Positions 18,568-21,294 of a DNA stretch of 64,000 nucleotides are shown here, piece after piece. Position numbers and translations under genes: made by a program. Within the stretch, counting starts at the first letter, position 1. Every line of letters begins with the position of its first letter. This DNA comes from Planctomycetota bacterium (lineage in GTDB: Bacteria; Planctomycetota; UBA1135; GCA-002686595). The stretch covers positions 1 through 64,000 of the forward strand of contig JAEUIA010000054.1 of NCBI GenBank assembly GCA_016795245.1, written 5' to 3'. The notes below the pieces were generated by a model. That model saw only the letters and a program-made list of their open reading frames with translations. It did no database searches and was not told the DNA's origin.

Positions 18568-18599
18568 GTTGTGTCCAAGATAGCTACGATGTGCGCTAC

Positions 18600-20525
18600 A
18601 TGCTGCACGCCGCTCTCGCTCTCCTCATGCTGACCGACATCGCTCCCGGAAACTGGAACGCGCATCTGGCCGCGCCGCACGGACCACTGCGTTTCGGATT
18701 GGAAGTCATCTCGACCAAGGCCGGGCTGTCCGCGGAAGTCCGCAACGGCAGCGAGCGCATCCCCGTGACACTGGCGCGATCCGACGACGGTGCGTTCGTG
18801 TTCGGCTTTCCACACTACAACGCGACGCTGACCGCGCGGCTCGACGAATCCCTTAAGCGGCTGGCCGGTGAATGGCGATTGCTGTCCGGAGCGAACAACT
18901 TCAAGACGCTCCCCTTCCACGCTGAACTGTCTGATCGCGCGCCGACGACGGGCTTCGGCTCGCCGTCCGAGCGCGCACAGCGCACCTTCGGCCGCTGGCG
19001 TGTCCAATTCGCCGGCGATCCGGATCCCGCGGTCGCGATCTTTCGCGCTGCCACCGACCCGCGCGACCAGGTCGAAGGCACGTTCCTCACCGCGACCGGT
19101 GATTATCGCTATCTCGCCGGCACGTTCGACGACCGACTCGTCCTCTCGTGCTTCGACGGTGCGCACGCGTTCTTGTTCACGGCCGACGTGCAACCGGACG
19201 GCAGCTTGAAAGGCACGTTTTGCGCCGGCGACAAGTTCACCGACACCTGGACCGCCGTGCGCGACGACGAGGCACGCGTGGGTGACGAGTTCGCGCGCGT
19301 GCGCTGGGACTCCTCCTACGGGCTGGCGGAGCTGCAATTCCCCGGGTTCGACGGCCAACTCGTGTCGCTCGGCGATGCGCGCTACGACGGGCACCCGCGC
19401 ATCCTGCAGATCGCGGGATCGTGGTGCCCGAATTGTCACGACGAGACGGCGCTGCTGGCCGAATTCGACCGCCAATACCGGGACAAGGGACTGGTGATCA
19501 CGGCCTTGTGCTTCGAAGTGACCGGTCGACGCGCGGCCGACACCGAGTCGATGCGGAGCATGTTTGCGCGCCACGGCGCCACGTACGAGACTCTGTTGGC
19601 CGGTCGCTTCGGCAAGACCTCCGCGCGCGAATCGCTGCCTGCGCTCGATCGCGTGTTCGCGTATCCGACCACCGTGTTCATCGCCCGGGACGGCAGCGTG
19701 CGCGCGGTTCACAGCGGCTTTTCAGGGCCCGCGACGGGTGAGGCGCACGCCGCGCTGCGCAACGACTTCACGCGCAGGATCGAGGAACTCATCGCCGGGG
19801 AACCAACGCGAGACACTGCGTCCGAGAAACGCGTCGTCGATGAGATGTGGCGCGACGAACGCGAGCGGACCTTCACGACTTTCACGCGCGAGCCCAGTGG
19901 AACACTGACGTACACGGTGATGGAGATGACCCGTTTCGATCGTCCGACGCGCACCGATCCGATCGAAACCGGTACGGCGGTCATCCGCGGCACGACCGTG
20001 CGCTTGGGTGCGACGATCCTGCAGTACGACCCGCGCGCCCACGTCATCCTCGATCCGCGCGATTGCTCGCATCGCTTCACGCCGGCTGCGCGCTCGCCCT
20101 TCGCCATCGTCGACGGTGGCTCGTGGCCTGAGGTCGAGCGAATGGTGGACGGCCTCGCCGGCGAGAATCCGCTCTTGCGCCGCGAGTGCGCTTACTACCT
20201 CGCGTTGCAACTCGTCACCGATCGGATGAAACCGCGTGAATTCGGCGGCGGGCAGCTCGATCCTGCGCTGGCGCAGAAACTGGCACCGCTTGTTTCCGAT
20301 CCCGATCCGCGCGTGCGCGCGACAGCCGCGTGGGCGGCAGGTGTGCTCCAACTTCAGGACACGCGCGCCCAACTCGAGCAGAACCTCGACCACGGCTACG
20401 CACCCGTCCGGCGCGAGTCGGCTCGTGCCCTGGGGATCATCGATCCCAAGTCAGCTGCCGAACAACTCGCGCAACTCGCACGCGATGACATCGATCCGCT
20501 GGTGCGCGCAGCTGCGTCACGCTGA
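18600..20525 (+). CDS. Exported thioredoxin-fold (TlpA/AhpC-like) protein with C-terminal HEAT repeats
   Basis: This is a protein of about 641 aa. A short signal (MLHAALALLMLTDIAPG) precedes a beta-rich domain of about 235 residues. A thioredoxin/redoxin domain follows with the redox pair WCPNC (Cys276 and Cys279) and the cis-Pro region FAYPTTVFIARDGSV. The C-terminal roughly 150 residues are HEAT-like helices (DPDPRVRATAAWAAGVLQL). It probably reduces or isomerises thiols in the periplasm, with the HEAT part as a docking scaffold. An in-frame GTG at 18591 is an alternative start; the ATG at 18600 gives the cleaner signal. The stop codon overlaps the first bases of the long hairpin at 20524. 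Confidence 0.87.
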   Translation: MLHAALALLMLTDIAPGNWNAHLAAPHGPLRFGLEVISTKAGLSAEVRNGSERIPVTLARSDDGAFVFGFPHYNATLTARLDESLKRLAGEWRLLSGANNFKTLPFHAELSDRAPTTGFGSPSERAQRTFGRWRVQFAGDPDPAVAIFRAATDPRDQVEGTFLTATGDYRYLAGTFDDRLVLSCFDGAHAFLFTADVQPDGSLKGTFCAGDKFTDTWTAVRDDEARVGDEFARVRWDSSYGLAELQFPGFDGQLVSLGDARYDGHPRILQIAGSWCPNCHDETALLAEFDRQYRDKGLVITALCFEVTGRRAADTESMRSMFARHGATYETLLAGRFGKTSARESLPALDRVFAYPTTVFIARDGSVRAVHSGFSGPATGEAHAALRNDFTRRIEELIAGEPTRDTASEKRVVDEMWRDERERTFTTFTREPSGTLTYTVMEMTRFDRPTRTDPIETGTAVIRGTTVRLGATILQYDPRAHVILDPRDCSHRFTPAARSPFAIVDGGSWPEVERMVDGLAGENPLLRRECAYYLALQLVTDRMKPREFGGGQLDPALAQKLAPLVSDPDPRVRATAAWAAGVLQLQDTRAQLEQNLDHGYAPVRRESARALGIIDPKSAAEQLAQLARDDIDPLVRAAASR

Positions 20526-20632
20526 GTACGGAGCCAGTGCAATTCTTCCCCGATTCACCGGCGTAGAACCGCACGGCTGCTCTGCGGTTTTACGCCGGTG
20601 AATCGGGGAAGAATTGCACTGGCTCCGTACTC
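20524..20632. repeat. Long inverted repeat (modular hairpin copy 2), likely bidirectional terminator
   Basis: Bases 20524-20573 pair with 20583-20632 over 50 positions with one mismatch, which would be a G-U wobble in one RNA strand, leaving a 9-nt loop. The blocks GTACGGAGCCAG (20526-20537) and CCGGCGTAGAACCGC (20558-20572) are identical to those of the hairpin at 1-128. The 20 nt between them are unrelated in the two copies but perfectly self-paired here. It sits exactly between two convergent stop codons and overlaps the first. A terminator role and a mobile REP-like origin are both plausible. Confidence 0.9.
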
Positions 20633-20650: not shown

Positions 20651-21223
20651 TCAGCTTTGCCGCAGACCGGGTTTCCAGAGCACGTCGTTCTTGCCGTTGC
20701 CGTTCAACACGCGACCGAGCACGAACAGGAGATCGGAGAGGCGATTCAAGTAGCGCAAGACCTCGGGGTTGACGCGATCCTTTTCGGCCGGAATCGCCAA
20801 CAGTTCCGACACGGAACGCTCGGCGCGGCGACACACGTTGCGCGCCAGATGCAACCACGCCGAGTGCGGCGTTCCGCCCGAGAGGATGAAAGACTTCAGC
20901 GGCTCCAGCGTCGCGTTCTCGCGGTCGATGATCGCTTCCAGCGCATTCGTGTACTTGGGCGTGATGCGCAGCCGCTCACCCGCTTCGCCGGGCACGCACA
21001 AGTCTGCGCCCACGTCGAACAGATCGTTCTGGATGCCGACGATGTAACCGCGGTAAGGCTCCGGCAGCTCCGCCGTGACGAGCAAGCCCAGCACCGCGTC
21101 GAGTTCGTCGACCGTGCCGTACGCGATGACGCGCGTATCGTGCTTGGCGACGCGTGTGCCGTCACCCAAGCTCGTCAATCCGTCGTCCCCGCCCTTCGTG
21201 TAGATTCGATCCAGTCGCACCAT
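20651..21223 (-). CDS. PduO-type ATP:cob(I)alamin adenosyltransferase
   Basis: This 190-aa enzyme transfers the adenosyl group of ATP to cob(I)alamin to make coenzyme B12. The N-terminal RIYTKGGDDGLTSLGDG forms the ATP-binding loop of the PduO/MMAB family. Other family hallmarks are VDELDAVLGLL, the IQNDLFDVGADL helix, FILSGGTPHSAWLHLARNVCRRAERSV and a C-terminal YLNRLSDLLFVLGR. The start at 21223 is chosen because KGGDDG then lies at the normal distance and a GGAAGGG ribosome site precedes it. No B12-dependent enzyme is seen in the window. Confidence 0.94.
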   Translation of the reverse strand: MVRLDRIYTKGGDDGLTSLGDGTRVAKHDTRVIAYGTVDELDAVLGLLVTAELPEPYRGYIVGIQNDLFDVGADLCVPGEAGERLRITPKYTNALEAIIDRENATLEPLKSFILSGGTPHSAWLHLARNVCRRAERSVSELLAIPAEKDRVNPEVLRYLNRLSDLLFVLGRVLNGNGKNDVLWKPGLRQS

Positions 21224-21294
21224 GGTCTTGCCCTTCCGCTCGTTTGGATGTGGATCATGATCCCGCCCGCGCGCAGGGGCAAGCACGAACGACA

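Follow-up and report, generated by a model that had tools for sequence, protein, structure and literature searches.

The window, the entire stretch of 64,000 nucleotides that was analyzed, represents contig C124 of G000, a draft genome of a Planctomycetota bacterium (4.47 Mb, 136 contigs). The two hairpins reported in the first-pass annotation are both present, one at the start of the contig and the other in the gap between two convergent genes. The relevant features, on the plus (+) or minus (-) strand, are as follows:

1-128, no strand: REPIN hairpin of the REP1 subfamily, arms 1-47 and 82-128, loop 48-81
157-182, -: single REP3-type repeat GTACGGAGTCAGGCTCCGCTCCGCCG, adjoining the first hairpin
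18591-20525, +: upstream gene for a protein with redoxin and HEAT-repeat domains
20524-20632, no strand: REPIN hairpin, REP1b mosaic, arms 20524-20573 and 20583-20632, loop 20574-20582
20526-20537, +: REP head GTACGGAGCCAG, left arm
20538-20557, +: 20-nt middle TGCAATTCTTCCCCGATTCA, REP5-like, exact complement at 20599-20618
20558-20572, +: inner core CCGGCGTAGAACCGC, complement at 20584-20598 with one change
20619-20630, -: REP head GTACGGAGCCAG, right arm
20651-21286, -: convergent gene for a PduO-type cob(I)yrinic acid adenosyltransferase

The hairpin at 20524-20632 is composed of two 50-nt arms and a 9-nt loop; its single mismatch, G20566 against T20590, is a G.U pair, and the predicted RNA fold has an energy of -106.2 kcal/mol (z = -19.4). 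The edge of this hairpin overlaps the TGA stop of the redoxin/HEAT gene (20523-20525) by 2 nt, and the stop of the PduO-type gene lies 18 nt past its other end. The hairpin at 1-128 has 47-nt arms without a mismatch and a 34-nt loop, and the contig start cuts the element. Both sequences contain the core CCGGCGTAGAACCGC, as had been claimed; however, in the first copy the core occupies positions 45-59, so that its first 3 nt belong to the stem and the remainder to the unpaired loop. A search of the entire window against Rfam returned no family.

Genome-wide analysis places the two hairpins in a large repeat family. The hairpin census covered an unselected 1.25 Mb sample of the genome, plus listed head loci; the sample contains 37 strong inverted repeats, compared with none in 20 shuffled blocks, and most of the 37 include one of several related repeat modules. 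The 12-nt head GTACGGAGCCAG occurs in 113 copies (none in the reversed control), and the head-N20-core pattern with up to three mismatches gives 132 matches (none in the control), with a spacer of nearly always 20 nt. The proposed modular family with conserved heads and fixed 20-nt spacing is thereby confirmed, and these counts are lower bounds, because many contigs end within such repeats. A scan of the GTDB contig collection for the head-N-core pattern found no match to the exact layout in its other genomes; the head by itself is shared in the family.

The 20-nt middle had been described as unrelated between the two copies yet perfectly matched by each copy's own other arm. Over 74 distinct head contexts, the middle falls mostly into two sets, GCTCMTGTGGTGCAAACTCG-like (REP1) and WGCMATTCTTCCCCGATTCR-like (REP1b), and the disparity between the two window hairpins is mainly this subfamily difference. 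Since the REP1b middle and core match those of a third family, TACACGGCTATTTTCTCCCCGATTCGCCGGCG (REP5), the hairpin at 20524-20632 is a mosaic that combines the head of one family with the middle of another. Nothing observed calls for random rewriting of the 20 nt. The complementarity is exact for 20538-20557 but it is not universal, as 5 of the 43 heads for which the core was found are single REPs without a partner arm (a further five heads lie too close to a contig end to be judged). A loopless palindromic relative, REP1c (GTACCGAGCCAGGCTCGTGTGGTGCATCTTCGCCGGCGTAGAGCCGCGCGCC), is embedded in a longer repeat at many contig ends of G000 (e.g., C1:31-77, C7:21-67, C9:54237-54283, and C27:91267-91313), and seems to be one of the main causes of the fragmented assembly.

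The REP1 monomer reads as a bulged palindrome, GAGTTTGACC...GGAGCCaGGCTCC...GGTgCAAACTC, with the inner stem GGAGCC/GGCTCC and the outer stem GAGTTTGACC/GGTgCAAACTC; the palindrome is not evident in REP1b, the subfamily of the second window copy. Pairs of REPs in inverted orientation form single hairpins in this genome, and the repeats show both the high copy number and the extragenic siting, in intergenic gaps, that characterize REPINs. Contig C29 encodes a RAYT transposase of 356 aa that matches the Pfam family Y1_Tnp above its cut-off, contains the HUH motif (THFHML, recognized by eye), and matches the NCBIfam model REP_Tyr_transpos with an E-value of 5.8e-15, which is under the curated cut-off (80 bits) that none of the five intact proteins tested reached. 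The C29 gene is flanked on both sides by inverted REP1-like repeats of 36 nt that are 86% complementary. The genome also has a second RAYT-like gene set of five paralogues, four of them intact and the fifth interrupted by a stop codon; at L162 (C129:4983-5531), a TAG-broken RAYT paralogue lies beside a hairpin with perfect arms of 100 nt. In a comparison for an empty site at the C29 RAYT with L188, a Planctomycetota MAG and the nearest named relative (83% identity in the neighboring gene), the downstream sequence was unrelated in the part read.

In the sister genera, orthologues of the C29 RAYT are surrounded by inverted pairs of related heads in three genomes (G026, G032, and G014) and have such heads at one side in two others (G018 and G004); most of the other orthologues have none of these heads. 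The sister genera possess their own hairpin families, in which the head is kept and the interior is different. In G026 (C157, C242, and C405), the head is found also in short direct tandem arrays with a spacing of about 26 nt near contig starts. The subfamilies and the repeats next to RAYT genes have the head TAC[C/G]G[A/T]GCC[A/T]G in common, and for this reason it probably constitutes the recognition end of the transposase. Because the RAYT gene is flanked by these heads, REP1 reads as a palindrome, and sister genera show the same association, the hairpins belong with REPINs and RAYT systems (PMC3116915, PMC3733652, PMC8266576), of which they form a large family in this genome. The opinion that no described element has this layout is therefore superseded.

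REPINs have been described (Bertels & Rainey 2011, PMC3116915) as elements whose ends are conserved, whose spacer is conserved to a lesser degree and in which compensatory changes are frequent, and the hairpins studied here share with them the inverted REP pair, the conserved ends, the self-pairing spacer of lower conservation, the many extragenic copies and the RAYT. They differ in that their near-perfect stems reach 173 nt, a single stem may combine several REP families, and pairing continues into locus-unique flanks. Similarly to REPtrons and TIRtrons (Di Nocera 2013, PMC3733652), tyrosine transposase genes are located between REPs or longer terminal inverted repeats, dimers are formed, and convergent and tandem gaps are preferred; REP families in Planctomycetes were reported in the same study. 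In E. coli BIMEs, a REP and an inverted REP are likewise joined by a linker, and the E. coli transposase cuts REPs in vitro (PMC8266576); however, the BIME linker is variable, whereas the spacer is here part of one nearly perfect stem. The tetranucleotides GTAG or CGTC that precede the palindrome in known repeats (PMC3733652) are absent, and GTAC or ATAC stands before the inner stem instead. According to the literature, this tetranucleotide is 'most often GTAG'; it is a typical rather than a defining mark, and its absence leaves the hairpins a variant of REPINs. In a published assay, the GTAC variant shifted cleavage to GA or GT, and many hairpin copies come straight after a stop codon's GA or AG; one may speculate that the two are connected.

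What goes beyond a textbook REPIN is the identity of the arms, including sequence that is unique to one site. Over the 25 REP1 hairpins compared, the left and right arms diverge by 0.8%, as opposed to 9.9% from one copy to another, in agreement with the initial suggestion that the arms change together; among private REP1 variants in the same hairpins, eight are found in both arms and four in one arm, which are small numbers. Taken together, the REP5 hairpins are matched less perfectly (7.0% arm difference within a copy). Over the 30-45 nt outside REP1, 15 loci show 26 differences in 656 columns (4.0%) between the two sides of the same locus, 20 of which belong to large REP1c elements and L047, compared with a 57% difference between loci. 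Near-perfect pairing can reach 36-80 nt into locus-unique flanks. At three loci, on C129, C109, and C92, the only genome matches of the outer 62-71 nt are their own two mirror copies, the sole exception being a weak 45-nt partial match for C109. Since these flanks have no other genomic match, pairing extends into DNA outside the repeat family. In the single-contig sister genome G029, perfect arms of 44-53 nt are likewise accompanied by outer parts that differ between loci.

The hairpins have a preference for convergent gaps, which hold 13 of the 27 census hairpins compared with 128 of 923 gene pairs overall (as assigned by a simple in-house gene caller), in line with the known preference of REP repeats for gaps of this type; they are present in tandem and divergent gaps as well. 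The hairpins often touch stop codons, and several palindromes run nearly from stop to stop with both stops equidistant from the center (148.5/148.5, 60.5/60.5, 154.5/155.5, and 158.5/159.5 nt, and 47/47 in G017). This symmetry is exact or near-exact at some loci only, and the window copy at 20524-20632 is asymmetric (53/73 nt).

Altogether, we consider it likely that these elements are REPINs that are mobilized by RAYTs and whose arms co-evolve by template switching during replication. According to this model, the non-autonomous REPINs would be moved, most likely, by the RAYT (Y1, HUH) transposases of the same genome and would often insert into the gap between convergent genes. Replication would at times switch template inside the hairpin and rebuild one arm on the pattern of the other. 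Such copying could mend mismatches, and it could also mirror the neighboring unique DNA, by which the stem would lengthen toward the flanking stop codons. Composite stems may form when a neighboring single REP is mirrored to the other side, as the states at L046 and L048 suggest and as might apply to the REP3-type repeat at 157-182 of the window. Fold-back copying would thus explain the matched changes, the site-unique mirrored flanks and the composite stems. Template switching is known to create and maintain perfect hairpins (PMC8794818) and has been published for RNA genes and yeast (PMC8794818, PMC8604942). Its recognized marks are found here, namely arms that are identical within a copy and differ between copies over multi-base blocks, and, at the C129, C109, and C92 loci, a mirror copy of site-unique sequence. 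Whole-arm homogenization, multi-base compensatory changes and new perfect stems in one event are common to both cases, except that the published examples concern RNA genes and a yeast coding sequence, and the substrate in the present case would be mobile repeats of one family, present at dozens of sites. The process rewriting both arms together, as proposed in the first-pass annotation, is accordingly retained as the best reading for the locus-specific paired flanks, although it is not needed for the 20 nt.

The usual account of arm matching in bacterial mobile hairpins is compensatory change under selection, and ordinary REPINs could have their base pairs kept by selection, on transposition or on an RNA hairpin, with no copying between arms. 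Compensatory changes are indeed frequent in REPINs (PMC3116915), and a very stable hairpin could be transcribed from each locus. However, selection on the element would not easily build pairing in locus-unique flanks outside of it, and mirrored site-unique DNA at several independent sites is beyond its reach. Stepwise compensation also predicts an excess of one-arm changes, in contrast to the eight both-arm and four one-arm private changes of REP1 (small numbers), and transitions account for roughly half of the arm mismatches (107 of 200), with no clear excess of wobble intermediates; we regard this explanation as unlikely. We find it somewhat less credible still, and improbable, that REPINs were nested by insertion into one another's center, in which case the 'unique' outer arms would represent old, decayed REPIN families. 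Ordered modules are recognizable within the arms at several loci (REP4>REP1, REP3>REP1, REP1>REP5, and REP5>REP3>REP1), as nesting would produce, but insertion into a loop would leave unpaired remnants, whereas the linkers between modules are wholly paired, with 0-2 mismatches at most loci. Decayed families would moreover carry most of their mismatches outermost, which is not so at most loci, and the one-sided states at L046 and L048 also argue against nesting.

An assembly artefact, in which arms were merged or mirrored by the assembler, has to be considered for a draft of 136 contigs, many of which end inside these hairpins, and short-read assembly may have inflated arm identity. Merging is not general, as some hairpin arms of G000 keep up to 11 mismatches, and a mirrored misjoin would not give way to a different flank 36-80 nt further on. 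The perfect arms of single-contig G029, with their locus-specific outer parts, suggest that a pure assembly effect does not apply, and there is little reason to favor this explanation. The convergent gaps and the extreme hairpin stability could instead point to bidirectional terminators spread by selection for termination. Yet neither a T-tract after the hairpin nor another intrinsic terminator signature was identified, a terminator and promoter scan around the window hairpin found none, hairpins occur in tandem and divergent gaps too, and the high copy number and RAYT linkage would be superfluous; a terminator role may exist as a secondary effect, and as the primary explanation it is very improbable. 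The retron-like origin templated by reverse transcription, also raised by the earlier reader, could draw on the two reverse-transcriptase loci of the genome. However, the PF00078 matches are confined to C64:80129-80809 and C129:50139-50834, none is on window contig C124 or near its hairpins, a retron would have its reverse transcriptase adjacent to the ncRNA locus, and the linkage is accounted for by RAYTs; we attach almost no weight to this origin.

If RAYT-mobilized REPINs with template switching are the correct reading, these planctomycete genomes would offer a natural record of hairpin template switching, replicated many times in each genome, and reveal a route by which new REP subfamilies can arise as mosaics; in genomes of this kind, covariation signals and 'terminator' hairpins between convergent genes might then stem from copying rather than from RNA function. 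A more tentative extension, which we consider possible but rather less probable than its alternative, is that repeated fold-back copying extends the palindrome by mirrored neighboring unique DNA until it occupies the whole gap from stop to stop in a palindrome-tolerant lineage, with RAYT elements seeding new long hairpins and mosaic REP families from these growing stems. A search of G000 (92.6% complete) for the palindrome nuclease SbcD (TIGR00619) gave no match, and the control search was positive in 13 of 14 known genomes; loss of SbcD would fit tolerance of long stems, and the gene could also be divergent or unassembled.

Further repeats were observed in these genomes. Three genera contain a separate MITE-like family, which has inverted ends near CTAGTG and a middle of 50-140 nt (L154:8504-8670; L300:7298-7468 and L306:17705-17906 in G029; L324:9600-9764 in G004). 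Members of another repeat class measure about 350-480 bp and have long imperfect inverted arms around CGGTACTCCGCGCG (L110:12048-12527, L101:11645-12006, and L147:353-744).
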